Part shown: positions 7,101 to 64,000 of the stretch, piece after piece
How positions within the stretch are numbered: the stretch's first letter is position 1
Layout of the letters: each line of letters starts with the position of its first letter
Origin: Isoetes taiwanensis
Lineage: Eukaryota; Streptophyta; Lycopodiopsida; Isoetales; Isoetaceae
Length of the DNA: 64,000 nt
NCBI GenBank assembly: GCA_021234155.1
Contig: JAJEKV010000013.1
Span: 15,911,877 to 15,975,876, forward strand
Direction: 5' to 3'
Program-made: the position numbers and the translations under genes
Notes under the pieces: generated by a model
Told to the model about the DNA's origin: nothing
What the model saw: the letters and a program-made list of their open reading frames with translations, nothing else
Databases searched by the model: none

Positions 7101-7415
7101 ACCTTCTTTGGTTAAATGTCCTTGAGCAAGAGGACCAAGCAAATTTACATCAATAAAGTGTAATGGATTTTTCTCGCAAGATGTGAACCAATCCTCCAAA
7201 GAAAAGAACCGATAAACCCAATTGTCTATCAAACCGCTAACACTAAGCAGATTAACCAAAGAACCCAGTACAAGAAGAACATCCTTAAGTTTGAAAGTCA
7301 TTGATGGATCAAACTTTAATTCAACAGCCTTTTCCTTGTGCTCGAAAAAGTAAGATTTCCATCCGCCATCTTCACAAACAAAGAGAGTCATACCTTTGAA
7401 GTGTAGAAAATACAT
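4150..7415 (-). pseudogene. Copia pol remnant
   Basis: This is the fossil pol part of the Copia element. Recognisable in order are the GAG-pre-integrase motif LWHERYGHVGIS, the integrase core (IHTDICYMP, FVDDFSRYTWVY, HSQNGVAERKHRT) and the Copia reverse-transcriptase entry (GAKWVYCTKYRSDGT, ARLVAKGYTQQ). The RNase H end is the most decayed. It is broken and not expected to give a product. Confidence 0.85.
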
Positions 7416-7511
7416 TTGATTTGCTCGCTAGATGTTTGGTAGCCCCGAATCTATTAACTGCACCTCTTCTTCTGCTAAATATTCTCCGCAGAATACCAAG
7501 AAATTGAGCTT

Positions 7512-8389
7512 CTAACCCATCCACGTAAATTTTAAAACCTTATCACTAATCTCCGAAATTGAAGTAGTAGAAGACTTGAGTGGTCGTTCCTTTGATTGCT
7601 CTTTTGCAAATTGAGCAAACTCTCGCTGTAACTTCCTACATTGACGTTTCATATGACCTTTCTTACCACAATACCAGCAAGTGAAAGGCTCCTTAGCGTA
7701 ATTGTGAGATGGCACGGATGTAGTTTTAGAAGCAAACATCTCAGAGAGGAATGCATAGAAGAAGAAGGAACTTTTGTGTGAGAATAATGAGCAGCTTCAG
7801 TTTGAATGGGTCTCTTATTTTCTTGCTCTTCATCTAATAAGTGCTGTTGTAGATGATGAAAATCAATCTTGATGGTAGGCTGCAATTTGTAAAACTTGAC
7901 TGTATGCTTGTATTCATCAGACAACCCCTTCAAAGCATAAAGAATAAGTCTGACCTTTTTCATCTCGCCTCCAGCACTAATATACTCTTCATGTAAAGTC
8001 TTGAGTTTCTTCAAATAGTCTCGCATGCTGGAGCAATCTACTATCTTCAGATTATCCATCTTGCTCTGAATAACAAGCTGTTGTCCTTCACCTTTAAGAA
8101 CACACTTCTTTTGCAGAAACTCAAAGGCTGTTGAAAAATCAGAGAACTCTTTAATATCCATAAGATAATCAATGCAAATACAAGCCCTAAGATGATTGAG
8201 AGCATAGAAATCTTTCTTCTTTTCATCATCTATTTTGGGAGCCCATTTAATGTCAAGAACTTCACCCAAATCCTTGAGATTAAGATTTGTCTTGAAAGCT
8301 TCTCTCCAAGTAAAGTAATTATGATCATCAAGAACTGGATACTGAAAATATTTCCAAGGATCATGACTAACCGCCATGAGAAAGCACAA
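7512..8389 (-). pseudogene. Copia gag remnant
   Basis: This is the fossil gag part of the Copia element. It carries the UBN2-like capsid region (YFTWREAFKTNL, then LGEVLDI) and a CCHC zinc knuckle CWYCGKKGHMKRQC near the distal end. It lies just inside the 5' LTR and leader. It is broken. Confidence 0.85.
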
Positions 8390-8806
8390 AAGAGCACAAG
8401 GGACGAGGGGAATGTGGAAAAGAATTGAGAAAGACCAGGGAATTCTGAAAATAGAGGCTACGTTTCCACAAGAAAGCCAAAAAAGAATCGGCTAAACTTA
8501 GAAGAGAGGTTAAATTTGGACAGATGGCGACTCCTACTATTAGAACCGGCACAAATCAGCAAAAAAAATTCGAAATATATCACAATGCAGATGAGAACGT
8601 CAAGATTTTTGGCCAAACTGTCTTCCGGCACCTGTTCTTGCAAGAATTGCAAGATTCTAGTCCAGGCTTATCCGATTCAATCAGTGTTTAGCTTATTTTA
8701 AAGACTAAACAAATCCACTTCACCTTCACGAAGTTTTACCTGTGATCTACAAATCTAGATCAAGAATCTGCCGATCAACCATGTACTGTCGTCATCCCTC
8801 AAATCC

Positions 8807-21157: not shown

Positions 21158-21603
21158 TGTTGATGTTTGGGGTTCTTGGCATCACCTTGCAGCAGCAGTC
21201 CATGACTGCCGGATGCCACAGGGCTGCCACAAATGCTCATAGATCAACAAAAGAAGGTGGGAAGAAACTCCAAGAACAATAACAAAGCAAAGAATGAACA
21301 AAACATAATCATATTGATGCTCCAAAAGGAGGTGCTCCAAAACGTGAGCAAAGCCTAAACAATGAGAGGAAATGCTCTCTCTAAATAGTAGAGCAAAACC
21401 CTAACCCTAACTGGCATCTCACCTTCCACAGATCTAGGCTAAATCTGGGCCATAGATTGTGGGGTCCAATATGACAAATACATGTGGCCTATGCCACCTA
21501 CCACATATGTGGGCTAAATCTGGGCCCTAGATCAAGTGGTCCAATGTGATAAATACATGTGGCCTATGCCACTCATACATATGTTTAGCCCAAAGGGCTA
21601 ACA
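21158..21603 (-). repeat. LARD-like element 3' LTR
   Basis: A 446-bp repeat matching 25017-25462 with about two differences. It contains 'accctaaccctaac' and two related segments around 'ctaaatctgggcc'. Confidence 0.9.
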
Positions 21604-25016: not shown

Positions 25017-25462
25017 TGTTGATGTTTGGGGTTCTTGGCATCACCTTGCAGCAGCAGTCCATGACTGCCGGATGCCACAGGGCTGCCACAAATGCTCATA
25101 GATCAACAAAAGAAGGTGGGAAGAAACTCCAAGAACAATAACAAAGCAAAGAATGAACAAAACATAATCATATTGATGCTCCAAAAGGAGGTGCTCCAAA
25201 ACATGAGCAAAGCCTAAACAATGAGAGGAAATGCTCTCTCTAAATAGTAGAGCAAAACCCTAACCCTAACTGACATCTCACCTTCCACAGATCTAGGCTA
25301 AATCTGGGCCATAGATTGTGGGGTCCAATATGACAAATACATGTGGCCTATGCCACCTACCACATATGTGGGCTAAATCTGGGCCCTAGATCAAGTGGTC
25401 CAATGTGATAAATACATGTGGCCTATGCCACTCATACATATGTTTAGCCCAAAGGGCTAACA
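25017..25462 (-). repeat. LARD-like element 5' LTR
   Basis: A 446-bp repeat paired with 21158-21603 and followed by the second ACTTG target copy. Confidence 0.9.
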
Positions 25463-30522: not shown

Positions 30523-33500
30523 GTGACTGAAAAGGCTGAAGAAGTATTGGAATCTAAGACGGTTTCAGCCATTGCCATGGAAGAGCTGTGCGCGCTGGAT
30601 AAGCCCGCAAGCAAAGACATCATGGATATGTTTGCTGGACGGGTGATTAGATTCTTGGGCAGAATCATGGGCCGAAACGTTGTTGTGTTATTGGATTGTG
30701 GCTCTTCTGACATGTTTATATCTTCTAAGTTGGTGGAAGAAATGCACCTACCTTGTGTAAAGACTAATAAGTACAAGGTAGATGGGCCTTTTGTGAATGG
30801 TTCTCAGGTGGAGGATCGTAAAGCTGTTGACGTACCCTTGTGTATTCAAGGATACCAGGAAAAGCTTGACTTTGACCTCTTGGATGTTGGCCTAAGATGA
30901 TGTGGTGCCGATAACATGGTTGCAAAGAGGTTAAGCTTCATCGCAATAGATTGGAACACTCACCAGGTGACGCTGAAGCACGATGGACGGGAGATCTATC
31001 TGCAGGGGAGTCCTTTGACGGGAGCTTCCAAGATCGTGTCGTCGCTTCAGGTCAAGAAACTGGTACGTAAATCTTCCAATCAATGTTTTCTTTTATTTAT
31101 TGATGAATGTTATCCTGCTTTTGAGTGCTGTCATATGAGTGCTGATAGTGAGGTCATAGAGGATTCAAAGGCCAGAGAGAATTGCAGGATCTGTTATCTG
31201 AATTTCAGGATGTGTTCCTTGAGGAACTGCCTGAAGGCCTTCCACCTAGTAGAGAGATTGAACATGAGATTGATTTAGAGCCTGGATCCAAACCTGTGTT
31301 TCGTAGCCCCTATAGATTGTCCATATTGGAACAAGAGGAGGTTAAGAAGCAGGTTCATGAGTTGTTAGCCAAAGGGTTTGTAAGACCTAGCAAATCCCCT
31401 TATAGTGCTCCTGTCATTCTAGTCAAGAAAAAGGACGGATCAATGCGGATGTGCATTGATTATCGTGCCTTGAATAAGATCACGATCAAGAATAGGTATC
31501 CTTTGCCTAGGATTGATGAGATTATGGATAGATTAACAGGAGCTAAATATTTTTCTAAGTTGGAATTGCGTAGCGGTTATCACCAAATAAGGGTGAAGGA
31601 GTCGGATGTGCATAAGACTGCCTTCAGGACCACTTTTGGTCATTTCGAATTTTTGGTGATGCCTTTTGGACTAATGAATGCTCCTGCTACTTTTTCCAGA
31701 ATGATGAATGAGGTTTTTGCAGGATGTCTTGATACTTTTGTGGCAGTATTTTTAGATGATATCCTGGTGTATAGCAAAACCTTAGAGGAGCATGTGAATC
31801 ATTTGCATTATGTGCTAACTCTGCTCAAACAGCATAAGTTGTATGCAAAGATGTCAAAGTGTGAATTTTTGAAAGCACAGGTGGTTTGGGCCACATTGTA
31901 TCTGCTGAAGGTGTAGCTGTAGATCCCAAGAAGACGGAGGCAATTCAGTCTTGGCCTGTAACAAAGAATGTATCTGAGTTGCGTAGTCTTGGGATTGGCC
32001 AGCTATTATCGCAGGTTTGTCTGGAAGTTTGCCAAGATTGCAGCTGCTTTAACTATGTTGTTGAAAACTAATGTCCAGTGGCAATGGACGGCGAAGCAGC
32101 AGCAGGCAATAGATATGTTGAAGAGGTTGCTAACCTCGGCGCCTATTCTGTTGATTCCAGACATGAGTAAACCTTATGAGTTTACACCGATGACTGTGGT
32201 TACGCGATTGGTGTTGTTCTCATGCAGGATGGTAGAGTAGTGGCATATGAAAGTCGCCAACTCAATGCTGCTGAGAAGAACTATTCCACCTATGAGCAGG
32301 AGTTACTGGCAATGGTTCATGCGCTCAAAGTCTGGAAACATTATCTCCGTAATAAGTGTGAGTTTGTGGTCTATACTGATCATAAACCCTTGAAATTCCT
32401 GCAAAGCCAGGCCGAGGTAAGTCCAAGGCAAGCAAGATGGTTGGACTTTCTTTCTCAATTTTATTTTCATGTTGAACATCTTCCGGGAAAAAGAATCCTG
32501 TTGCTGATGCTCTCTCTAGGGTTCGGGAAGTGAATCTGATGGTTCAATGTGAAATTGCATTGGTGTAACAGATTAAACAAGCATATGACTTGGATGCCTA
32601 TATTTTGACTATGCGGCATCTATCCAAGTTACTTGATGCTTGGGATATCCAGGATGGACTCTGGTATCATAAGGGACGTATTTATGTTCCTGCCGTTGAC
32701 ACTTTGAGAAAGCAAGTATTGAGCGAATTCCACGATGCACCCTATGCTGGGCATGGAGGTGAGTGAAAAACATATGAATCGCTCAAGAGAATGTTTTATT
32801 GGCCTAGCTTGAAAGAGGATGTGCAGGAATATGTGAAAGTTTGTGAGACTTGTCAGCAGGTTAAACGGGTCGAGGCAAGACTCCAAGGCTTTTGCAACCT
32901 CTGCCTGTGCCAGAGGAGAGATGGAGTGAAATCTCTATGGATTTCATTATGAAGTTGCCTCATACTGTGCATCACTATACCCGGACGGGAAGCAGAGGCT
33001 GAGTGAGAAGTAGATGGAGCGGAGGAAGCATGTGGCTGAGAGGGCGTGGGTCGTGAGGGAGCAGGAGTAGGAGCAGGAGAAGGGGGGGCTGTGGTAGGAG
33101 AAGCAGGAGTAGGAGCAGGAGAGAAGGGGCTGGGTAGGAGAAGCGTAAGGGCCACGGCCACCGCGATTGGGGTCATGGGGTCTACAGCAGAAGAAGGTGT
33201 CGGAAAAATGTGCATCCTGCCCCGAACCAATCCTACGGCACCCCCTTGGTGGCGGATGCCTCCATCCCGACAAGCTCCCGTCTCAAGGCTCCTCCTGCTG
33301 TAGCGGTGTGAGGTCTCGCCTCCACGCATGTGGACGCCCCTTTAGCATCTTGCCCTGGCGCAATATGGCATCACGCACCTGCGCATCCCTTGTCATTGTG
33401 GATAGGTTGACGAAGTATGCACGCTTTATACCTCTGACAAAGAATGCTGATGGCTTGGCGGTGGCCAAGGCTTATATGCAGCATGTATTTCCTATTTTTG

Positions 33501-34141
33501 GATTACCCAAAGCTATTGTAAGCGATCGAGATGTGAAATTCATTGGGAATTTCTCATGGAATTGTTCCCTCAGATGTTGAAATGCACTCTTCGCCTCTAG
33601 TGGAGATCATCCAAAAACGGATGGGCAAACCGAAAGAGTGAATCGATTCGAGGATATGCCGAGATCTTATGTGGCCACCAAAGAATCCGTATGGGAGGAC
33701 TATTTGCCAATTGTGGAGTTTGCTTACAATAATGGGTTCCAACAGAGCATCAAGACTAGCCCGTTTGTGGCTATGTTTGGGAGAAATCCCAGAGGACCTA
33801 TATCGCTTGGTTTTGATGGGCTGAAAACTGATGCTGCTATAAGTATGCTTGAAGGCATGGATGTGACACTTGGTTTGTGTCAATTGCGTATGAGACAGGC
33901 CCAGGATCGGGCGAGGGCACGTGCCAATCTGTCGAGAGCCCCGATCGAGCTACATGAGGGTCAGATGGTGTACCTTCATGTGGTCTTTCCTGCAAATCTG
34001 AAAAGAAAAGCAATATTGCCATTGCTTGCAGGAAAGAAACCAAAGCTCTCCCCAAAATACAGTGGTCCTTATAAGATTTTAAAGAAATATAGTGATGTTG
34101 CCTTCAAGTTGCAACTTCCACCGAATGTGGACATTCATTGA
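30523..34141 (+). pseudogene. Gypsy pol remnant
   Basis: This is fossil pol. Protease has VVLLDCGSSDMF. Reverse transcriptase has [38 protein letters not shown] and [11 protein letters not shown]. RNase H has YESRQLNAAEKNYSTYEQEL and YTDHKPLKFL. Integrase has LVIVDRLTKYARFIP, VSDRDVKF and FAYNNGF. It is broken, and the integrase part is split by the insert at 32978-33375. Confidence 0.88.
32978..33375. mobile_element. GC-rich insertion inside the Gypsy integrase region
   Basis: Integrase-like sequence stops near 32977 and resumes near 33380. About 0.4 kb of GC-rich sequence lies between them, including a 'ggagcaggagtaggagcagg' purine repeat. GCATCAC lies at both edges (about 32970-32976 and 33370-33376) and could be a 7-bp target duplication. 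I do not recognise the insert. Confidence 0.55.
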
Positions 34142-34402
34142 GTTTTCCATGTGAGCCAGTTGCGACCAGCTCTGGGGAAAGCTGCGAATGTTGTGCCTTC
34201 TCAGGAACACATGGTGGAGTTGGATAGAATTCCTACCCCTGAAAGAATATTGAATTCCGGATAGTGCGGATCCGCCAAAGAGACCAGATGGAATTTCTGG
34301 TAAAATGGAAGCATAGACTGCCCCTCGTGGCGACGGGAGAGTCGTCGTTTCATGACTCAATATCCGGATGTTATGGCTCAATGGTCTGAAGCCGATTCTT
34401 GA
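34142..34402 (+). pseudogene. Gypsy chromodomain-like end
   Basis: After VFHVSQLRPAL, the sequence carries QMEFLVKWKH in one frame, the core of a chromodomain as found at the C-terminus of chromovirus integrases. It is decayed. Confidence 0.65.
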
Positions 34403-34427
34403 GGACAAGAATCCCAGGGGGGAGTAA

Positions 34428-36049
34428 TGTTATGCCCAAAATATTTTGCAGACCATTGTAAGTAAATTACATGCATGTTGTTGCGGGCTAACAAATTGAA
34501 TTAATGCGGTTGGCATTAGATTCATGGTTGCGTGTTTTTTTTTTCTAGAGCGGAGGTAAGGTGCACCTCAATAAACCTTAGATTAGGGGCGCAACCATGT
34601 GTTGGGTTATTAAACTTGGTTGCAATTTGCCATTGGGCCATTTAAAGGTTAAATGGCTTATAAGGTTATAAACACCTTAATGGTTTAAAAACCATTGCAT
34701 GTTAAAATGGTGAGCACCCCTTAAATCGGGGGATGCCACCAGCGGCTGCTGTTGCAGTGATAGAGGTGGATCTGGGGAAGACCTGGGCCACCAAAGGTGT
34801 TTCCGACAGGGCTGCCTTGCTGCCAGGATGCCGCCACGTGGCTCTGCCACGTTGGCAGGGGTTTCCAACAAATGTGATAAGGCAGCAGAATAAGGCACGC
34901 CGGATTGAACAGAAGTTACAGGAGGACTGCAGCAGCCGAAAGGCTATCAGTAAAAGATGAAGGGAGAAGCCTGAGCAACTTCCGGAGGCGTCTAGGTTCA
35001 GTTGAAGGGATCAGTGATTGGTGGAGGCGGGAATTATTGGTAAGCCTTCCTACTAGCAGGGATGCTTGGCAATAACAGAATTTGTCTTCCGGAAGGAAGA
35101 CTCAGATAATAATTCTCCATGAATATTAGAACTCCACCTCGAGGGCATCATAGGATTGCCCGAGGAATTCCTTCTGAACCAATACGCTGGAATAGCATAG
35201 AGGCCTTCCTTGTACCAGTCTCTAAAGCTTGGCTGTATGCACTACTTGGCGAGGCCGACTTGGCTTGGATGGCGATGGATTTCGTTGTTGTACCGCAAGA
35301 GCAATATGGGTCTTGCAGTTAACAAGCAAGCTGGCAAAGCCTCGTAGTAACCCCTCCTTCTTGATGTGTTCTTGAGCAAGAACATAATAGCAAGCAAATG
35401 TTACTTCAAGAACTCCCGTATTATAATGGTGAGGCAAGTATATGGCCTTGGTATGGACGAGGTCATGTATTTGTCAACAGGCCAGCAGTATTCGGAAGTT
35501 TCTATGGAGCTGTACTCCATTGTGGAAGTATCTTAGTGATGCTAGGGTGAGCACAGTAAGTGCTACCCAAGGGAGTGTTATGCATGACATACTTGTAGGC
35601 GAGCGTAGCTTGTCTAAATAGGAACTAAAGGTACTTGTGAGGTAAAGTCTATCGCTGGTATGGGACAGTGGCAGGTGGAACCAACAGTCTAGTGGCCTGG
35701 GTTCTTATGATGCTTGCAGTTTCTCCCTCACTTTGGATCCACCAGCACGGGGGTTCTAGACGACGTACTGTCTAGATATGGCGGGGTGTGTCTACTTGAG
35801 CCTGTCAGTCATTGCTTTGTGTTGACACTACTCTTATGCATGTTATTAACACATGGAAGCTTGTGCAGGCTGTTTGATAGCTGGCGGAGCGTACGTGTGC
35901 ATTTAGTTATCTTGTGTGTCGTCTTGTTATCTGTATACGTGGTTTTCATGTATATAGCCTCGTGGGAGGCAGTACTTGTTCTGTGTACTCTGATGGTCTG
36001 ATGTGAATACAAATCGAAATTTTTGGTACTAAAATTTTGGTTCGTAACA
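34428..36049 (+). repeat. Gypsy 3' LTR
   Basis: It runs from TGTTATGCCC to TTCGTAACA, so its ends form the short inverted repeat TGTTA/TAACA. It directly follows the purine tract. It is 1,622 bp long. Confidence 0.88.
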
Positions 36050-36255
36050 GTGGGTTTAAGTGAATTTCTTATCAAACTATTAAGTCACTGAAAATTAAAA
36101 TTTTTATGTTTTTGAAATGTCTAATTCTAAATAGATTCAACTGAAAATTAGTTTGAAAAGCAATTTTGTTATTTGATAACCATTATAGTTTTAATCCAAA
36201 AATAAACTTATATAATTAAAACTTATAAAAATTATAATAACCAAGAAGAATTACT
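36050..36255. repeat. Fragment of the AT-rich repeat
   Basis: It matches the AT module at about 17540-17730, including 'tttgataaccattatag' and 'ttataataaccaagaagaat'. It directly follows the Gypsy 3' LTR; the matching partner is absent on the other side of that element. Confidence 0.7.
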
Positions 36256-36506
36256 ATCTTTTTTTGTCTATGCATATTTTAATTCTAATTTGATATGAAT
36301 TTGCAAGTGTAGGTTGTAGATTGCTGCATAAAATATAAGATTTGGAGTCCAGATTTTGCAGAGAAGTAAGCATTTTCCACTTACCTTCGTTTGGTTTATT
36401 TGTTTGATTTCTGCTTGAGTATGTTTTGTATGACTTGCTTCCTTATTTTATTTGGTGGCCCCAAAGAATAAATCTAAAATAGGAGCTAGCTCATGACGTA
36501 AAGATA

Positions 36507-39500
36507 GTGTCAATGAAGGGGTATGCCCGCTCACATGGGTTGACTAAAGAGAGGTGCCGCTACAAAATTTTTGCTAAGGCCTTCAAATCTCATTATGTTC
36601 CCAGGGCTCACCGCTGCAAGCAGATTCAAACCTTTTATCACTGGGAGCAGAAGAACATGACCGTCCAAACTTACACGGATGAGTTCACGAGGTTGTGTTT
36701 GTATGTCTCAGGGATAAATGAGCGCAGAGCAGTTGAGGGGTTCATTGAGGGGTTATCCCGTACCTTGAGAAAGACGGTTCGAGCAGTAGACCCTAAAACA
36801 GTAGCGGAAGCAGAGGCTAAAGCCCTTAGCCTAGAGGAGGATGCTCCCAAGTATCAGCCGCCACGACCCTCTTCTTTTGGTCAAAATAGGGGTTACACAC
36901 CTTACAGGGGACGTTCACCTAGTCCGGGGCCTTCCGCCTCAACTGGATATTAGAAGTCAGAGAAGAAAGTCTCTTTCACAGTACCAGACAAGTCCACTAA
37001 TGCCACGGGAGCTTTCAAAGATATTCTCCAAGCCATTCCCAAGGAGGCTCGCGACCAGTTACCTCAGGACAAGGCTTGCTATCGGTGCTTCCGCCCAGGA
37101 CACCGCATGCAGGAATGCCCCTACATCACACAAACTGTGCAGGCCGCCCTTACTGAAGTGGATTGGGAAGGTGCAGGGGACCCAAATGATCCGAACCATG
37201 CTGCTGAAGTGGATGCGCCTGACTATATACAAGGTGAGTCCCATATTTATGCTGCCATTGAAATGGGCCAAGCCAATCATCAACCTTCTGTCATTTCCAC
37301 GGTTGGCCAAGTAGATTATAAGCCCTTCATTATCCTCATGGATACCGGCAACACACATAACTTTGCCTCCCATAGAATGGCAGAGGCTTTGCAGCTCACT
37401 CTTTTGAAATCTAAGCCGCGTCCAGTTACGTTGGCTAGTGGGGCCGTGCGCCACACACGGGGTCGACGCATTAACTTGAACATCCAGCTGCCAGGAGCAC
37501 CTGTTGCTCTAGGGGCCGAGATAATGGATATTGGTCGCTATGATCTCATTGTGGGCATGGAGTTCCTGGCTGCTGCAAAGGCCCACATTGATTGCGAAAA
37601 GCGAGAAGTTACCTTCAATGCAGCCAACGGAGCCCGAGTGACCATAGCAGGTAAACCGGTTGATCCCGTTATGCAGTGCATCTCATTACGTCAGTTGCAT
37701 AGAGCTATCAGAAAATCTCAGGTTATTGACATGATTCGAATTGCCTCGGTAGAAGTCAAGTCCAAGCAAGATGAAGTTCTTGACAGCTTGCCTCTGGCAA
37801 TAGCACGTATTCTTCGGGAATACCATGACCTTTTACGGGAAGAAATTCATCGGTTGCCACCCTTTAGAGGTGTGGAGTGTGAAATTACCTTAAAACCAGA
37901 CACCAAGTCTACCAGCAAGGCTCCATATCGAATGAGCACTCCGAAGTTAACAGAACATAAGAAGCAGTTACAAGAGCTCCTCAGATTGGGCTTCATTCGA
38001 CCTAGTATCTACCTCTTGGAGCCCCGATACTCTTTGTGAAGAAGAAGGATGGCACCTTGAGAATGTGCATAGATTATCGTCAACTGAATAAGCACACTAT
38101 TAAGAATTGGTATGCTTTACCACGTGCCGACCATCTAATAGATCAGTTGCAAGGGGATAAATATTTTACAAAGATTGACCTTCATTCGGGATATCACCAG
38201 ATACGAATTAAGGAGGATGACATTCAGAAGTCTGCTTTCCGGATATGTTATGGGCATTATGAGTTCACTGTGATGCCCTTTGGCTTGACTAATACCCCGA
38301 CTACCTTCATGAGGCTGATGAATGATGTCTTCCGTGAGTATCTTGATGATTTTGTCATCATATTCTTTGATGATATCCTCATATACAGTAAACCTAGAGG
38401 GTCATGAACGGCATCTTCGTTTGGCCTTGCAGAAACTCAGACGCCACTTCTGTATATGCCAAGTTCTACAAGTATAGGTTCGCAACCACCAAGGTTGATT
38501 ACCTGAGACATATTGTGTCTGCGGAAGGGATAACCACAGATCCAGCTAAGATTGAAGCAGTAAAGGATTGGCTGATTCCAACCAATGTGTCTGAGGTTCG
38601 CAGCTTTTTAGGTTTGGCCAGGTATTACAACAAGTTTGTCAAAGACTTTGCCAAGCTCGCTGCGCCTTTAACGGACCTAACCAAGCATGAAAAGGTTAGG
38701 GACTGGGTGGCACATTGGAAAGACAAAGTTCAAGCTGGATTCTAGTCATTGAAGGATGCTTTGACAACGGCCCCAGTTCTCACCTTGCCAGACCCTCAGA
38801 AGGATAAGTAGGTTGCTACGGATGCTAGTAAAATAGCTACCGGTGCCGGTGGCATGTTAATGCAAGCGGGTTGGGTTATCACGTATGATTCTAGGAAGAT
38901 GAATGATGCGGAACGACGATACTTCACGCATGACCGGGAATTACTTGCTGTCGTGCGTGCCTTGCGCATTTGGAGGCATTATTTATTTGGGAGACGGTTC
39001 CAGTTGGATACTGATCAGCAAAGACTCCAATACATTTTCACACAACCCCATCTCAATTTGAGACAAAGACGATGGATGGAATTCCTCGAGGAATATGATT
39101 TTGAGGTTATCTATAAGTCTGGCAAGCATAATGTTGTTGCTGGCGCGCTCTCCCGACATCCATTGGTCACTCGAACGCATTGTAATGCCATATCCACGCT
39201 TTCTAGCGAGTTTGGGAAGCAGATACAGCAAACTCTCTCCATGGACCCAGAATCCCAGGAGATATGGCAGAGTGTATCCAAGGAAGCCAGAACAGACAAG
39301 GAAAGGGAGGCTTTCCGCCATTATAAGAAGCAAGCTGGACTCCTTTATTATAAAGATAAGTTATGTGTTCCCGGACATCAGGAGTTCGTAAGCTCATTCT
39401 CCATGATACACATAACAATCCTATAGCAGGGCATGCTGGATTTATAAAGACATATTTCAAGATCTGCTCCAGGTATTTTTGGCCAGGCATGAAGAAGCAC

Positions 39501-40690
39501 ATTGCTAAATACATTAAGCAATGCCAGATCTGTTAGCAAACGAAGGCTAAGCAAATGCGTATTCCAGGGGAACTGCAACCCCTAGATGTCCCCAATGCAA
39601 AATGGGAAGTTATTACCATGGATTTCATCGTGGGGCTTTCGCGCACCTTAAGAGGATTTGATGCCTTAATGGTGGTGGTCGACAAACTTTCTAAGATGGC
39701 ACACTTTCTGCCGTGTCGTACCATGGACATTGCATTGGACATCGCCTTGTTGTTTACCAAGGAGATATTTCGCCTTCATGGGATGCCCCGTACCATTATA
39801 TCGGACCGGGATCCTAAGATTGTTAGTGCATTCTGGAAAGATTTCTTTAGCACTATTCAAACTAAGCTTGCCATGAGCACAGCTTATCATCTGCAAACAA
39901 ATGGTCAAACAGAGCGTACCAATCGCATAATTGAAGATATGCTACATAATTACGTCTGGAACAAGCAATCTCAATGGGCAGATTACATCCATTTGGTGGA
40001 GTTTGCCTATAACAGCACTAAATAGGAGTTCTCAAGGATGTCTCCTTTCATGATCAATTACGGCTATCAATGCCTCACTCCGGACACGTGACATAATCCA
40101 GTTTCCAAGGTGGAAGTTTTTTAGCAGCTGCTTACAGATATGCAGGCACTTGTGGAAGAAGTTAGAGCATATTTGCTAGCTGCAAAAGCTTGGCAAAAGA
40201 GTCTTGCCGATTGACATCGGACGCTGCGAGAATTTCAGGTCAGTGATTCTGTTTGGCTAAAGATCAAGGTCAAGCAAGCCAAACTTAAGATTGGCAATTG
40301 TAAGAAGCTTACACCTAGATGGGCGGGTCCTTTTCAGATAACCGAAAGGATAGGTCCTCAGGCCTACCGATTGGACCTACCCGCACATTTAAAGATTCAT
40401 AAAGTTTTCCATGTAAGTCTTCTAAAGAACCATAATCCTGATCGAGAAGAGATTCTTGACACACCAACACTTCTGGAGATGACCGAGGATCAGTTGGAGA
40501 TTGTGCATGAAACCCTCCTTGATCGCGCATACAAGCAAACTCGTGGAACTCAAATTTTGCTACTTGGTTAAGTGAAAACACTTACCCACAGAAGACGCAA
40601 CATGGGTTCTTAAAGAGGATTTGGATAAGACTTACCCGGACTTCATGAAAGAATGCAGGGTCAAACCATTCAAGATGCGATCAACTCCAA
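36507..40690 (+). mobile_element. Ty3/Gypsy element without LTRs, broken
   Basis: This is a second, different Gypsy lineage. Gag at 36507-36953 has FYHWEQKNMTVQTYTDEFTR. It is followed by a CYRCFRPGHRMQEC knuckle, protease (ILMDTGNTHNFAS), reverse transcriptase ([26 protein letters not shown]), RNase H, integrase (VVVDKLSKMAHFLP, QTNGQTERTNRI) and a chromodomain-like end with EDATWVLKEDLDKTYPDF. I see no LTRs, primer site or target duplication at either end. About eight breaks separate the open segments. The LTRs were probably lost by deletion or truncation. Confidence 0.88.
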
Positions 40691-49286: not shown

Positions 49287-50324
49287 TTAAAACATACTGT
49301 CATCCACTATAACCACATCATCATCATTTTCGTAATTCTTGTTGAATGGAAGGGCATTATGTTTCTTAGGATGCCAACTCCCATCAGCCAGCACTTCAAT
49401 TTGCATCACATCCTCTTCAAAAGATCTACTAAGAGCAGCAAGAACTGGACTTAGATAGGAATCAACAATCAAGTCATCCAGCGAGCAGTTTGTGAGACAG
49501 ATAGGGCATTGCCACTTGCGGACCTTCTGATTAAGCTCCACAAAAGTGTACAAATCAAAGCATCCCATGTGAAGGCACGATTTGAAGCGGCCAGGAACAT
49601 TGATTCTAGACCCGCTCAGGGGGCACCGGAGGCTTAGAGTCATAGAAGTTTGTGTGGTCACATCAAGGTTATTATCATCATCATAAACTTCTCCTTGAAC
49701 ACATCTTTGAACGCGAGATAATGCCTTGACAAAAGGCTCACCTGCTTCTATGCTAGGAACTTTGCTTAGAACCTTTTCTACTGAGCATCTTTGAATAACC
49801 CGTATGCCAAAACAAAAGGATCTATCATCACCATGAGACATGAGAACATTATTCCACCCTTCTTTCACACAACCCACAAGGCCTACTCCATCATCCCTGC
49901 TGTTGGCTCCAAGAATTTTATTTTTGGCTCTGTTTATTACATTGATTTTCACCCCATTGACATGAAGCTCGCCACCTGATGGCCAATTAAATCTAAACGG
50001 AACAATGTCATCTAATAACATGCACCATACCTGGAGCTCATAATCGGGCCTATTTGCCATCTGAAAATCTGATTGTGTCAACTTAAAAAACTTTTGAGTT
50101 CCCCTCCCTTTCTTCAAGTTGGTTGAAAACATCAACTCTGCGACTGTCTGACAAAAGGGATCAGCTCGTTCTAAACGGCAAATTTCGCAAAAAAATAAAG
50201 GGGGCAATTGCGAAGTGTTGAGAACGCAAGCTTTGTGCTGCCATACAGAGCACTTGTCATTCTCGCATTCAATCATCTTGCCTATTTCGTCGTCCACACC
50301 ACATGGACACCTCACCGTTGCCAT
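49287..50324 (-). CDS. Intronless SIZ1/PIAS-like SUMO E3 ligase (PHD-PINIT-SP-RING), no SAP domain
   Basis: The 345-aa product matches the middle of plant SIZ1, a nuclear E3 that helps the SUMO-charged E2 modify targets. PHD finger: C6, C8, C20, C25, H30, C33, C46, C49, with FFCEICRLERADPF. A PINIT-type region spans about 75-185 (QVWCMLLDDIVPFRFNWP, HVNGVKINVINR). The SP-RING spans about 234-276 (CPLSGSR, CLHMGCFDL, WQCPIC), with C250, H252 and C255. An acidic-hydrophobic SUMO-interaction motif DDDVVIVDD (334-342) ends the protein. The start is the ATG at 50324; the frame stays open six bases further, to a GTG. Plant SIZ1 has an N-terminal SAP domain, about 870 aa and many introns; here there is one uninterrupted exon, so a retrogene is likely. 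All zinc ligands are kept, so it may be functional. Confidence 0.85.
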   Translation of the reverse strand: MATVRCPCGVDDEIGKMIECENDKCSVWQHKACVLNTSQLPPLFFCEICRLERADPFCQTVAELMFSTNLKKGRGTQKFFKLTQSDFQMANRPDYELQVWCMLLDDIVPFRFNWPSGGELHVNGVKINVINRAKNKILGANSRDDGVGLVGCVKEGWNNVLMSHGDDRSFCFGIRVIQRCSVEKVLSKVPSIEAGEPFVKALSRVQRCVQGEVYDDDNNLDVTTQTSMTLSLRCPLSGSRINVPGRFKSCLHMGCFDLYTFVELNQKVRKWQCPICLTNCSLDDLIVDSYLSPVLAALSRSFEEDVMQIEVLADGSWHPKKHNALPFNKNYENDDDVVIVDDSMF

Positions 50325-50474
50325 CTCCACAAACCCTAGATACGGAAACGAGCTTGTAGGACGAAAAGGCCAGAAATATTTGGGAAGATATTTTATTCCA
50401 AATATCTGACGTCGTCACAGGAAAACTGTTGAACACGGCTAGATTCGCTACTATTCTGCAAGTCGAATATTTAA

Positions 50475-57310: not shown

Positions 57311-58410
57311 TCTGATTGTGAGTATCGTCTTGCTGTGCTTTCTAATTTGTTTTTATCAGCCTCCTTATCACCGATGGAATCCTAGGCAGGCATCTCAGTC
57401 TTCTTTCCTGGATGAATCGCAGATCCAATCTTTCCTGCTTAGATAAGACTCTGGCCTCATTTATATTAATGAGGATGTCGGTGACAAAATACTGATATTG
57501 CTTTATGCTTCTCGTAATTTCCAATATAAATGTCCCCCTCCCCCCCCCCCCCGCCCCCTTCCCTCCGGTTCCGCTCCCCATGCTTCCCCCCGATCTATGA
57601 TAAACTATGGAAGCAGTTGGACATTTGGCCAAGAAGGAGTAACATCAAAGGGTAAAACATTTTGGTTGTCGTCATTCCAGAGATCCTTCCATACAACTCA
57701 AGGAACTGAGCCACATTCTAATATGATTTAAATCCTTGTATGTCCAACAGATCAGTTGAGTATGTTCGAGAACAGTAGTAAACAAAGTTTAAAATGAAAC
57801 GCACTTATTTGCTGGAAACGCACTTCAAAAGGAATCTTTGAAAGATTCCCTAAAATTCCCTTAAAAAGGTCCATTTTTAAGATTTTTTTGTGACAGGTGT
57901 GACAATTTAAGTAATTTAGGTACCATTTTTGAGGGGTTGATTGAACATAACTTTCGTGCAAAAATTTTAAATAGCAATTTTCATCCTCCTAAACTAGAAC
58001 AAAAAATAGTTACTTTTATAAAGTGTAGCAAAAAAGGGGCAATAAAAAAAATAGCAAAGGTAGTAGAGTGACAAAGAAGTGATATATTCAAGGTTGTGAA
58101 AATTGTACAAAATTATGAACAAAATTGTCAAAAATATAGGACATTTTGACAAATACTCATCACCGCACTTTCTTTCTTTTACATGTTCGAGTCATCTGGA
58201 CAAACTTACATTTTGCGGAAAGATCGGGATGCATCTCATCCTCCCACTCATTTAATCCCCGATCACTTGAGCCTTCATCCTCGGCTTCACTCTCAAAGAC
58301 GGATGTACTTTCGAACGATCTTCTTCCTCACCGCCTACAAGTGAGTCTTCATCATCATCTTTTTTTTGCCACCTTTCTAGGTTGTTTGTCTAATCCACAT
58401 GCCGACCTTA
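57311..58410. other. Unassigned stretch with a poly(C) tract
   Basis: A C-rich tract lies at about 57535-57560. A minus-strand open frame at 57342-57632 reads a glycine-rich segment across this tract and is probably not a gene. The part 57740-58140 is AT-rich and non-coding. Confidence 0.4.
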
Positions 58411-61333
58411 TTAAAGTTTGAGTGACCATACTAGCAGCAATGTAACAAAGTCATATGCAAGAACCTTTACTTCAGCTAGATCTATGACAGCGAAGTTGCT
58501 TGCTTTGGACTTTGCTCTCTTTCCCACTCCCTGTTTTACCATCTCCAAAGTATAACTCCCATCGAAAAGCATTGGCGATTCGTTCTCATCCAAAGGCACT
58601 TTTAGTTGAGTGGGAATTCCATCCTCTTTGTTACCTCCAAGACTTTAGCTAGCCGTAATGGCTTCCCGTGATTCATCATTATCACCGACAGCTATGAGCA
58701 TTCCTTTCTCAATCTCCTCGAGACCGAACCGGATACTCGAAAGCAACTTGTTGTGCCATGCGCCCGGGGCGGCTGTACATGACTCTGTCATCTTCATCCG
58801 AGCTAGCCAATATCTCTGCTTGTTCCTCTTGATTCTCAACTTGCACGGGGAGAGTTTGCCTAGATGGCCAGCTTGAATGTAACTGTTCTTCGACCTTGTA
58901 ATGAAGCTTGCAACATGTCACGCTGTCGAAAAAAAAGCGAGGCCACCATAAAGCATCTGCCTCCCCAAAGTGGTTAGAGCACGATCAATACTTGTCTCAA
59001 TATAATCCAATGATTTGTTTGAGTCAAATGCTCTTCCCTCCTTTTTACTCTTTGTGATTTCTTTCAAGCTTTTTAGAGGCATTTGCTCTGCAGAGAGCAT
59101 GGAACTAGTATTGGGGATGGTGCTAATGAATTGAATACTCACGATGGCTGCCAATTTGCAAGGATGTGGCATATTTCTTTCCTTGTAAGATGGCCTTGCC
59201 ATCTACAAGTGAAATTTTGATCCGATGTTTGAAATGTAATGTTTCTCAAGGGCTCAATAGCACAAAGGACCCAGTTGATCTCTCCAAAAATCCATTCTTT
59301 GAAATCATAAGTTTCTTCCAATAACTCGATGTCCGGACGAGGATTGTAGGAATCTTGGATAACCTCAATCATTGCTGGTAGGTAGGCTTTTTTTTCGAAA
59401 GCAAGACGCTTAGAGAACCTATCAACATCCGATCAATTTGATCGTGTGTATGACCAACAAGCAGAAACCAATCTTCACCTTCTTGAAGATTTGTTTCTCT
59501 ACTAGCATAGCACGCTAAGCAAACAATGCCCGATTCTTATTTTCCCTTGTCGTGTTGTCTAGTCAAGATATAGAACCTAAGGGTATATGTTCTAGATTGG
59601 AAAGAAGCTTATTCAATATTGTGATAGTGAGATTTGGATCAGCATGAATATTTGATAATTCAAAAAAAATGCCTTGCAAGATAGTTTTCCATTAAATACC
59701 ATAGCACCAACAACATGCGGATGTATGAAATCTTCTTCAAGAAGATCCTTAGGCACATTGACAAAATGTGGTAGGGTGGTCTTCTTCTCGTCCATTCCAT
59801 CAATAACAACCGATATGTAGTTGAGTGGTTGTTCCAAAGGCTTTCTTCCTATGTTTTGTCAATTTTCTCCTTTCCAAAGATTGTTGTTCTCTCTGCTTTG
59901 TTCGGTTTCTCCTTCAATGCATCCGAAATGAAAATATGTTTAGGAAAGAACCTACTTTTAAGTAGAACTAGGCAAGAACACGCCCCGAAGCTTACTTTTA
60001 GTGTGAAGTGTCCTTGCATTTTGTCTCTCGAAGCTTTTAATTCAGAGCATGTAGCACAAAACGACATCCTATGCTTTCTAGGAATGGACACGCCGAGAAA
60101 ACTCTTTTTCCGTGAGCACAAGAAAGTAAGAGTAGCGCATAAAAGCGTTCTCCACCTCAACACACATCTCCTTATAATTATCGTAGACTTCTTGTTTCGC
60201 GGAAATTGTCACCAAGTGGTACATAGGGCTGTTAGGGAGTTTCTCACAAGACTCCTTAAAGAAACCTTCCATCCGTGAAACACATTGAAGGGCATGAATT
60301 CTCGGTTATGCCTCCCGAATGGCGTGAGTCATTGATGCCCGGATTCTTGTCAAGCCTTTTTCTTCAGCGGTCAAGTCGTCACGCGCCTAAAGCATGAATC
60401 AATTTGAAGGCCGTTTGATGCAGGCGGTGTGGCCACCAGCCGTGTAAGTAAACTTCTCACCATCATCCGCCTAATATTGAAGGCTAAGTAGCCCCTTTGG
60501 TCTAGCAGAGTCATTGAATCAGAACTATCACGAATCAACCTCAATTCCTTTAGTCCAATCTTAAGCAAACAACGCTTGAGAACAACAAGCAGCTTTGTAT
60601 GTGTTGCCCGCAAGTGAGCCTCGATCCCATGAGTTTCTTTCTTCTAACGGTTGTACATGCTTTCTTGTGTAAGTTACGCTTTAAGATTCTTACTTGCGAG
60701 GGCTTTGAATTCAACATGGAGTCTTGTGGCTTTGGTAGGTCCTCGCCCCAGACATCAACATGAGGTGTTTCTTCGTCTGAGAGATCAACATGAGGTGTAC
60801 TTGTAGATGCTGAGAGGTTTGATGTGGGCAAGTCCTGGGGGGAGGTGCTTTCCCTCTCTCTGGGAAAAAGTAATCGAGGCTGGTGACGTAGTTGACCAGC
60901 TCCCCGGCGTCGTAGAACACAGAGTTGGGCGTGGTCGCCGATCGCCCTCCCCACTTGTTGTAGTACCATTTAGCGAAATGGATGGAGTTGGTGTGATTTG
61001 CCTCCGTGGGAGGGAGCCTACGGTGGACTATGGGCTTAATGCATCAAAATGAACCGGAGTAGGTAGTCTGAGCTCTCTAGCCTGTGGTGGAGTAAAACGC
61101 ATTGGTGGGGGCAAACGACGTTCAGGAGCAGGGTGTGGTGGAGTAAATTGAACTGGTGGTGGAAGCCGAGGTGGTCGTGGCCGAGAAAACTCAACGTAGC
61201 CGGGTGTTGGAATGTCGGAGGTAGAATATTCGTGGCTACTTCCTCGTGTCCGTTGAGAAGGTGTGAAAGCCATTGCAGAGGAAGCCTCGCGAATGTGAGT
61301 TGAGGCTCGCAGCTTCTTTTTCTCGAAAGCCAT
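58411..61333 (-). pseudogene. Decayed DUF7869-type (transposase-like) gene
   Basis: Three family motifs appear in order on the minus strand: ISVVIDGMDEKKTTLPHF (about 59770-59825), LDNTTRENKN (59533-59562) and VGHTHDQID (59432-59458). Acidic D..D/E and H..D positions at this spacing suggest an RNase H/DDE-like catalytic fold; that role is inferred. Before them is a cysteine segment (RMSFCATCSELK); after them comes NPRPDIELLEETYDFKEWIF. The N-terminus at 61333 (MAFEKKKLRASTHIREASSA) is proline-rich and begins two bases from the palindrome array. The frame changes repeatedly and contains stops even inside conserved motifs, so this copy is dead unless some breaks are introns. The part right of about 58918 is clear; the part at 58411-58917 is less sure. 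Confidence 0.6.
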
Positions 61334-61334
61334 A

Positions 61335-62076
61335 CGGTATAAATTTATACAGAGTTGGTATAAATTTATACAGGAAGAAAAAACTTAAAGCAGATCAGAT
61401 AAATTTATACTGAGATGGTATAAATTTATACTGTAGGAGGGCAACATAGAACAAAGCCTCGGTATAAATTTATACGAAAAACTCACGACACTTGTATTGA
61501 AAACTTTATGGAGAAGCGCTTATATGAAACGGCACTTAGCGAGGTACTTAAGCCCTGGCCACCCAATTATTTTCTATATATATATGCAGCGGCTGAGTCG
61601 GCTCGATGTGCGGGCTTATATACCCCCTTATTTGCTCTCCTAACGCCTATACGCTGCTATACCGGTCATGGCCACTTAAGTCTACTATCCGCATCGTTTC
61701 TAGTTTCTTTTGTTTTAATCTGCTAGAGTGTAAGCGCCCACGGTATAAATTTATACCGATATGGTTCTGGATCGGTATAAATTTATACCGCTTCGAGCAA
61801 CGAAGCCAGTATAAATTTATACCGCCTGCAACACGCTTCGGTATAAATTTATACCGCAAGTGTTCCGAGCCAGATAAATTTATACCGCTGAGCACGAAGC
61901 GGTATAAATTTATACCGTTCCAGAACACAGTCGGTATAATTTATACCGATCCAGAACCATATCGGTATAAATTTATACCGACTGTGTTAATTGAACGGTA
62001 TAAATTTATACCGCCGAAAGCACTCATGCAGATAAATTTATACCGATCGTGGTTCGATCGGTATAAATTTATACCG
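61335..62076. repeat. Array of 16 palindromic 18-mers between divergent genes
   Basis: Sixteen full or variant copies of CGGTATAAATTTATACCG start near 61335, 61356, 61395, 61416, 61460, 61741, 61773, 61807, 61839, 61871, 61900, 61932, 61963, 61996, 62029 and 62059. From 61741 on, spacing averages about 32 bp, close to three helical turns; on the left, spacings of 21 bp occur twice. Several copies keep the right half but carry CAGATAAA on the left. Each palindrome holds TATAAAT on both strands. The array separates the start of the DUF7869 gene from the ParB-like gene. Likely roles are protein-binding sites or a bidirectional promoter. Confidence 0.9.
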
Positions 62077-62269
62077 CTCGTGAACCATTTCGGAATCTTG
62101 GTGTCTAGTGCTTAAAGAATTGTCGCGAACCTTAATATTTTAGTAATATTGTTATGCTTTTAAGCTTAAATAACACAAATAAAGTGATAATTTAGTGTAG
62201 ATTTTATGCTCTTTTAGCCTCTATTTTTACTGTTTTTATGTTACAAAAGGTCGAAAAAGGTTCTGTTTC

Positions 62270-63693
62270 TTGCATAAAAATGGCCTTCTTAACGCTTTTT
62301 CCAGCCCCAAGATCAGGTTTGTACAGAAGGGCCAATCATCAAAGGCTGCACCAATAGAGCCACAGACATACGAACTGAAAGACCAGACGTGGTACGTCCA
62401 CAAGGGCGCAAGAGAGCAAACCCACCGAGGCGCACCTTTTTACTTGTGTCATCAATCGTGAAGGGCAAGTACAAGTCTGACGATTATTACCCTGCCGGCG
62501 AAATTGTCAACCTTGTTGCTACAGACGTCGATGATGAAATTTTAATGAAGTGCATGCATGACAAGGGGGAAGTCTTTTACGTTCTTGAAAGTAAAATGCT
62601 TCGAATAAGCATGTGCAAACCCAAAGACGTGCATGACTACGTGGCTGACAATTACAAGAGTGGCTATGTAAGTATTGTTTAGTGTCTTTACGTATAAATT
62701 TATACCGGTCATCCTCCTAACTTAACCCCATTACGACATTATATATAGTGGACATTTTGATGTCGGTGGTGCTTTGGCGAAGAAAAGGTGTTGGTCAAAG
62801 GTCTCAGGGTACCCCACCCTAACGAAGAGGAAGAGAAGGACGAGGAAATAGAAGAAGAAAAGGAAGAGGAACCAGTGGTAACAAAGGGAAAGGGTAGGAA
62901 GCATTCCCTGGTAGTAGATACACAGGCTCCCACAAAAAAGAAATCTAGAAGCACAAAGTCTTTGACTATAGAGGAGTCAACAGAAGCTCTTCAGAAGGCT
63001 CCTGGAGCAGATATTGTTGTGAAGCCCGCAGATAAATCAAGTGCTATTCTCAAGCGGGTGAATGACACTAAACTGCTGAAGCAAACTATTTCTTTGACAT
63101 TGAGCACCATTAAGAGGCCACCTAAAAATGAAGATGGGGTCGAGTGCTACAGTCCTAAGTCAGATGCGGCACATGTGGCTATAATCAAAACAAAGAATGA
63201 GAAGGAATCCTCATGCCCATGTGTCGCCACTAGTTGTTATGGTGGGACAGGAGTCGCAACCAACTAAAAGATTACAAGAAGGTCGACTTCAAGATTACAC
63301 ATACTACGTTCTTGGAGGCACACATAGTTACAAGGCAAGGAAAGAACTAGCAAAAAAGAAGAAAGCCGTGAACGGTGTGGAAGAGCGTGGGAAGCACATA
63401 TATACGCTTGGTGTAACAGATGAAGAAGCAAAAGTCATTGCCGTGAGTCATAATCTCGACAATGACTTCAGATTAAAAATGAGTTTAATAGACAAGATCC
63501 GTTTCATGCACCGTGGGTACGTGGAATTTAAACAAATGCATGGAGAGGATTTTAAAAAGCAAAAGAATAAGCTGCAGGAGCTTCGAGAAGCCTGTGTGAC
63601 AGAGTGCTGCCTCAGCTATGACTCTGATAAGAAGCCCATTATGGCAGTAAAGCAATACGATAACTACTTTCACCGGCATTCCGAGATGGTCAA
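62270..63693 (+). CDS. ParB/Srx-like domain protein (partial, frame not continuous)
   Basis: The strongest part is 63197-63693. SPLVVMVGQE is followed by YYVLGGTHSYKARKEL (GG at 63314), then HIYTLGVTDEEAKVIAVSHN and DFRLKMSLIDKIRFM. A GG.H...A motif inside an alpha/beta segment is the core of the ParB/sulfiredoxin (Srx) fold, which binds nucleotides or phosphate and in some families cleaves DNA. Upstream are an acidic stretch (about 62818-62870), a basic KKKSRSTK patch and SDAAHVAIIK. An earlier exon-like segment (62389-62668) ends at GTAAGT; the ParB-like segment also ends at GTAAGT (63694). The frame is not continuous near 62450 and 63195, so this copy may be damaged. The gene runs off the window. 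Palindromes lie in its introns. Confidence 0.5.
62691..62708. repeat. Single palindrome copy in an intron
   Basis: CGTATAAATTTATACCGG lies about 20 bp after the GTAAGT donor at 62669, inside the first visible intron of the ParB-like gene. Confidence 0.85.
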
Positions 63694-63757
63694 GTAAGTA
63701 AATGCTCTTCTTTCGTGGTTTTGTAGTATGTTTAGCGTGGTTACAAGTGCCTTGGCA

Positions 63758-63953
63758 CGGTATAAATTTATACCGTGGGAGGCACGGTATAAATTTATAC
63801 CGCGACAAGTCCCGGTATAAATTCATACAAGTAACACGATAAATTTATACCGCCGACTAGTCAAGATAAATTCATACTGCAGTAGCGCGATAAATTTATA
63901 CCGCGCCTAGTCGCTGCAGATAAATTTATACCGCACGGTATAAATTTATACCG
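63758..63953. repeat. Second palindrome array, eight copies
   Basis: Copies start near 63758, 63785, 63813, 63837, 63863, 63888, 63918 and 63936, with mean spacing of about 25 bp. Three are perfect CGGTATAAATTTATACCG; the others have one weakened half. The array starts about 65 bp after a GTAAGT donor, so it is probably intronic, and it may continue past the window. Confidence 0.88.
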
Positions 63954-64000
63954 CGACTACACACCGCGGCGATTTAGACAGAGATCGCGGCAACATATTC

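Follow-up and report, generated by a model that had tools for sequence, protein, structure and literature searches.

Arrays of an 18-bp palindrome in a DNA transposon of Isoetes taiwanensis that very probably encodes a ParB-like methyltransferase

Bacterial ParB proteins are associated with clustered palindromic parS sites. A ParB-like domain has also been described in a eukaryotic transposon, Sola1-1_Ec32 of Ectocarpus, in which a gene opposite the transposase encodes ParB-like and N4C/N6A methyltransferase domains (PMC12477816). According to the same source, related algal transposons also have ParB-like and DNA methyltransferase genes, and its authors suggested that such ParB-methyltransferase proteins bind and modify their own element (PMC12477816). 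The terms "palindrom-", "subterminal" and "binding site" are absent from the main text of that paper. A different type of sequence-addressed system is described for VANDAL21, which is a MuDR element (PMC12730594). The arrays of the VANC21 motif are located upstream of the genes and in the introns of their own element, and the VANC protein, for which binding was shown, causes the loss of DNA methylation at its targets (PMC5735166). A further eukaryotic example is the bdelloid N4CMT, in which a permuted N6_N4_MTase domain (PF01555) is present in a eukaryote. It is described as a host gene, fused to a chromodomain and captured from bacteria (PMC8885841).

The transposon and its two divergent genes

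The window considered here is a stretch of 64,000 nucleotides from the Isoetes taiwanensis assembly (C941:15911877-15975876). The following features were placed on it:

57777-57780, unstranded: target site duplication AGTA, left copy; the right copy lies beyond the window
57781-64000, unstranded: transposon, in-window part of a total of ~8.6 kb; it continues past the window with the methyltransferase exons, array D and its right end
57781-57810, plus strand: left terminal inverted repeat AACAAAGTTTAAAATGAAACGCACTTATTT, 30 bp
58160-61333, minus strand: DUF7869 gene (putative transposase), predicted limits; stops and frameshifts in this copy
61335-61477, unstranded: array A, 5 palindromes immediately 5' of the DUF7869 ATG
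61741-62076, unstranded: array B, 11 palindromes with 30-34 bp spacing; inverted spacer copies present
62305-62669, plus strand: exon 1 of the ParB-methyltransferase gene, predicted limits; frame broken in the window copy
62690-62707, unstranded: single palindrome in predicted intron 1 of the ParB-methyltransferase gene
62749-63693, plus strand: exon 2 with an acidic linker and the ParB/Srx-like domain; its frame is shifted in the window copy but open in many others; splice sites predicted from sequence
63758-63953, unstranded: array C, 8 palindromes, in the predicted intron following exon 2

The terminal inverted repeats are 30 bp long and occur at both ends of the element, and alignments of copies place the end of the right partner at C941 ~15978271, 2.4 kb past the window end. 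Read inwards, the ends have the sequence AACAA(A/G)GTTTAAAATGAAACGCACTTATTT, from which the right end of the window copy differs by one base. Identical 4-bp flanks were found in seven of the eight end pairs examined, the window copy included (AGTA, AATA, ATAG, ACCC, AATC, AAAT and TTCC); the flanks of the remaining pair, from copy L040, carry no matching 4-bp duplication. The element is clearly a multi-copy family of DNA transposons with terminal inverted repeats, which inserts with 4-bp duplications and is dispersed together with non-autonomous relatives. An earlier, sequence-only reading had suggested that the palindromes may form a self-contained system with one of the two divergent genes, for mobility, segregation or autoregulation, and a single mobile unit of palindromes and both genes is supported; that reading missed the terminal repeats, the duplications and the continuation of the ParB-like protein into a DNA methyltransferase. 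Because the unit is a transposon of this type, the setting of plasmid-like segregation (ParABS) was set aside; no Pfam match to ParA occurs among the 30 window ORFs scanned. Sola transposons produce a 4-bp target duplication. The accessory gene of the Isoetes element and its 4-bp duplication are the two traits that would fit a Sola1 assignment.

In the first of the two genes, the earliest in-frame ATG lies at 61331-61333, where it adjoins the first palindrome of array A. Its fragments in the window match DUF7869 below the Pfam cut-off (E 5e-5 and 9e-4), and a homologous open stretch of 253 residues in copy L035 matches this family (PF25273) with E 1.9e-52 and 178.1 bits against a cut-off of 26, so the earlier assignment of the divergent neighbour to DUF7869 was right. 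We infer that the encoded protein is the transposase. The DUF7869 stretch has no relative in PDB or in the viral contigs, and no literature on DUF7869 was found.

The second gene contains several frameshifts in the window copy. Of 2703 genomic candidates for relatives of its ParB-like exon, 150 were scored, so that the family has at least this size; open frames of 335-400 codons are present in many of them. In other copies, in the part beyond the window, an exon with IADIPYGF follows array C and an exon with LDAFSGSGTTAV follows array D. The latter exon in L031 (7384-7689) matches N6_N4_Mtase (PF01555) with E 8.6e-12 and 45.9 bits against a cut-off of 26.7, and also matches phage DNA methyltransferases in PHROGs; this copy has lost the IADIPYG exon. 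Both methyltransferase motif stretches are present in L035, in which the last exon alone reaches 18.8 bits, below the PF01555 cut-off of 26.7. Motif IV of amino-methyltransferases usually reads DPPY, and the catalytic motif is (D/N/S)PP(Y/F/W). The motif-IV-like stretch of the element reads DIPY in several copies, in the exon preceding the LDAFSGSGTTAV exon, and a UPF0020 match at the DIPY exon lies below the cut-off (E 0.0077). Since the later exons carry the IADIPYGF and PF01555-matching stretches, the product of this accessory gene is very probably a fusion of a ParB-like domain with an amino-methyltransferase (N6/N4), with exon joins predicted from conserved frames and splice-like sites. 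A composite query retrieved 15 matches among proteins from genomes and metagenomes, all bearing PF01555, and the rescanning of eight of these homologues revealed a ParB domain in none. At the N-terminal side, exon 1 of L049 has a weak likeness, below the cut-off (E 0.012), to a helically extended SH3 domain.

The domain encoded by exon 2 is probably ParB/Srx-like, as the sequence-only reading had proposed. The top three PHROGs matches of an intact relative are all ParB-like partition proteins; they are weak (E 0.013, 0.015 and 0.058) and cover the GGTHSYKA...VGVTDEEA part of the domain. In Pfam, a family member matches DUF6551 with E 0.008, outranked by the unrelated IgA0_D2 with E 0.0017, and none reaches the cut-off. 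The comparison of the family, in a very shallow alignment, with 15 ParB proteins by hhalign gave no match, and the window's own ParB-like exons returned nothing usable in Pfam, NCBIfam and PHROGs. Searches with the ParB-like protein of the window (P0001) gave nothing at E <=1 among the protein set, plasmids and phages and nothing in the viral contigs; its single PDB match (E 0.32) is taken as chance. Profile support for the proposal is weak and comes from relatives; hhalign and the window's own exon gave none. The ParB-like reading is further supported by the report of the same domain pair for algal transposons.

Protein-level constraint on this domain was estimated from the 29 best-scoring other copies, of which 22 with the full 179-codon domain were used and 7 were dropped. 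The mean pairwise differences over 179 codons were 8.8 at first, 4.8 at second and 61.5 at third positions. The ratio of mean dN to mean dS was ~0.036, and dN was below dS in 67% of the 231 pairs, pairs with saturated dS being uncountable. By this measure, selection at the protein level strongly constrains the ParB-like domain in the 22 intact copies, which were picked by protein similarity and are thus biased towards intact ones.

The window contains other features as well. A gene with PHD and MIZ/SP-RING domains, which resembles SIZ1-type SUMO ligases, is located at 49287-50414 on the minus strand, and fragmented ORFs of Copia-type and Ty3-type retrotransposons are present at 5278-8491 and 31152-40025. 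At 21420-21572 and again 3.9 kb away at 25279-25431, a 75-bp tandem pair is present whose consensus and scores are identical in both places; the two may belong to the long repeats of a single element.

The palindrome in the window and across the genome

The 18-bp palindrome CGGTATAAATTTATACCG occurs in 25 copies in the window, 10 of them perfect, and all are located within 61335-63953. With up to three mismatches, 20 copies are present against 0.02 expected from shuffles. The core ATAAATTTAT appears 22 times (0.24 expected), always inside 61339-63949. The earlier count of 16, 1 and 8 palindromes is borne out as 5 + 11 + 1 + 8 = 25. Of the layout claimed with it, before, within and after the gene, only the last part changes: because the gene continues in later exons of other copies, the site at 62690 and the array at 63758-63953 fall in predicted introns. 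The palindromes of array B have a mean centre-to-centre spacing of 31.8 bp, which corresponds to about three helical turns, and this array includes a perfect 43-nt inverted pair (61741-61783 and 61938-61980) spanning spacer and site repeats. Further palindromes, including array D, are located beyond the window end. The Rfam search gave no match within the window.

In the whole assembly (1,658,258,908 bases), 4415 exact copies of CGGTATAAATTTATACCG were counted, against ~0.06 expected from the base composition of the window, and the control pattern, the palindrome read backwards, has 0 occurrences. The fetched sample, which is not random since it comes from low contig numbers only, consists of 13 regions that represent 14 of the 15 listed palindrome sites. 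All 13 regions contain element genes or terminal repeats. Genes homologous to those of the window are present in six (L029-L033 and L035), in L033 limited to DUF7869 and part of exon 1, and the other seven have no homologue of the window genes at E 1e-4. Conversely, the best-scoring 29 of the 150 listed ParB-like copies, the window copy apart, all have palindromes within 3.5 kb, placed in the array C region in 29, upstream in 25 and in the intron-1 stretch (160 bp) in 25. In both sets, palindromes and element accompany each other; the sequence-only reading had put up for checking a genome-wide link of the arrays to the ParB-like or DUF7869 genes. The 14 sampled places contain 53 exact palindromes, and the genome-wide count then corresponds to ~1,200 array sites, a rough value from a non-random sample.

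The palindromes are scarce in the main coding exon. Only three of the 407 palindrome cores in the 29 copies are located inside exon 2, against 97 expected under a uniform distribution. Over 631 palindrome instances the 18 bp are conserved and the spacers are mostly variable, the conservation being tested by the outer 8 positions only, since the central 10 bp had served to select the instances. Even spacings predominate, namely 28, 30 and 32. The spacers have a mild excess of GNNC at their centre, in 25% of 204 even spacers versus 10% elsewhere in them. Array spacers (window 61741-62076; L027, L029-L041 and L043-L071) tend to even length and to GNNC-enriched centres, as if they were dyads too.

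Outside the plant, 10 bacterial contigs and 1 IMG/VR contig contain the exact 18-mer, each of them a single time. The examined stretches of these contigs have at most two cores and therefore no arrays, and a prokaryotic or viral origin of the arrays was rejected. In a Maribacter contig (L002) and a Lutibacter contig (L010), one exact palindrome each is accompanied by a second core 30 and 90 bp away.

Five gene-less copies (L034, L036, L038, L039 and L040) are 2168-2203 bp long and mutually 85-91% identical. An unfiltered blastn comparison (E 1e-3) aligns them with the window element over 183-371 bp on the left side (interrupted in L034), over 55-79 bp on the right side and in the arrays; all remaining matches contain a palindrome core. 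Each copy has 7-9 cores, and four of the five have matching 4-bp duplications. The gene-less copies are the best evidence, from sequence comparison, that the arrays and the ends would be cis-acting parts of the element. Except for the palindromes, the interior of this 2.2-kb family is unlike the window element, and its longest frames have 85-121 codons.

Candidate binders of the palindromes

The palindromes are very likely bound by some protein that the element itself encodes. Which protein this would be is a less certain matter: we favour the reading that the palindromes are cis-acting sites whose binder is an element protein, most probably the ParB-methyltransferase, and that this binding would serve to mark or regulate the element. 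The element would encode two proteins, the DUF7869 transposase and a divergent ParB/Srx-like N6/N4 DNA methyltransferase. The latter would most likely bind the phased palindromes, both those at the divergent promoters and the intronic ones, and become concentrated there, and the bound protein would mark or de-silence the element in cis and its gene-less relatives in trans. The proposed mode resembles that of VANC at its motif arrays, but it would act via a DNA methylase; to our knowledge, VANC has no methyltransferase. In favour of this reading are the 4415 versus 0 copies, the link of palindromes and element in 13 of 13 regions and 29 of 29 ParB-like copies, the VANC21 arrays with their similar placement, the terminal repeats and duplications, the two motif stretches in L035, the PF01555 match, the constraint, the scarcity in exon 2 and the arrays of the gene-less relatives. 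The points against it are DIPY in place of the usual DPPY, the weak ParB similarity and the interrupted match of L034. We also infer that the ParB-methyltransferase may methylate the element. A more tentative extension is self-marking, in which the protein would load at the arrays and deposit 6mA or 4mC on the copies of its element as well as on the gene-less ones, replacing or blocking host silencing.

The arrays in gene-less copies fit the transposase as the binder equally well. TnpA binds the repeats of Spm, and the DUF7869 transposase, not the ParB-methyltransferase, could in the same manner bind the palindromes as internal transposition sites. Since both arrays and ends persist in the gene-less 2.2-kb family, four of whose five members have matching duplications, the arrays may be needed in cis for movement. 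This alternative is rather unlikely; against it, the full element has its arrays near the divergent promoters and within introns, at a distance from its ends. It is quite improbable that the palindromes, which read TATAAA on both strands, are promoter or enhancer sites by which a host factor drives both divergent genes. Arrays A and B do occupy the divergent intergenic region, and array A abuts the DUF7869 ATG, but arrays are present in introns too and are retained by elements without genes, and the conserved stretch of 18 bp exceeds a TATA box. Least credible are neutral tandem repeats that arose through slippage and inversion and travel passively with the transposon. The inverted copies among the spacers and the dominance of even spacings (28, 30 and 32) do suggest repeat expansion, but the spacers vary while the 18-bp motif is conserved in 631 instances (only the outer 8 positions being informative), only 3 of 407 cores fall in exon 2, and the arrays are common to gene-less interiors that are otherwise unmatched.

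Comparison with known systems

The kind of element is already known, because ParB and methyltransferase genes have been published for algal transposons, a point missed by the sequence-only reading, which knew of no described eukaryotic system with this arrangement. No report of the palindrome arrays was found in the literature searched by letters or by topic, mostly open-access texts. The Isoetes taiwanensis genome paper, whose assembly used Nanopore reads, mentions in its main text neither Sola, ParB nor "DNA transposon" (PMC8566536). Within the searchable literature, the palindrome arrays and the vascular-plant host appear to be new.

Like Sola1-1_Ec32, the Isoetes element is a DNA transposon, very probably with a ParB-like and methyltransferase gene on the opposite strand; the former is 21.5 kb long and comes from a brown alga, and the latter has 8.6 kb and comes from a vascular plant (PMC12477816). 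With VANDAL21 it shares a short motif arrayed upstream of genes and in introns of its own element, but the VANC motif YAGTATTAY is no palindrome and keeps one orientation, whereas the Isoetes motif is palindromic (PMC5735166). No MuDR family is among the matches in the Pfam scans of the element ORFs. The presence of PF01555 in a eukaryote is common to the bdelloid N4CMT, which is described with neither a transposon nor palindrome arrays (PMC8885841). As in bacterial ParB/parS, a domain that is probably ParB-like lies beside clustered palindromic sites; unlike there, the Isoetes protein would have a methyltransferase attached, its sites are dispersed with a transposon, and no ParA was found among the scanned ORFs.

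The proposal made for the algal elements (PMC12477816) is not known to name a target, and the Isoetes family brings an explicit candidate, present in thousands of copies. The main coding exon contains few of these sites, and they persist in gene-less relatives which, apart from them, have just the ends in common with the element. Such an explicit candidate makes the bind-and-modify idea directly testable, possibly with existing plant long reads. The ParB-methyltransferase kind of element is thereby extended to a vascular plant, and if the self-marking extension is true, this would be a transposon with a private, sequence-addressed non-5mC epigenetic mark in a vascular plant.
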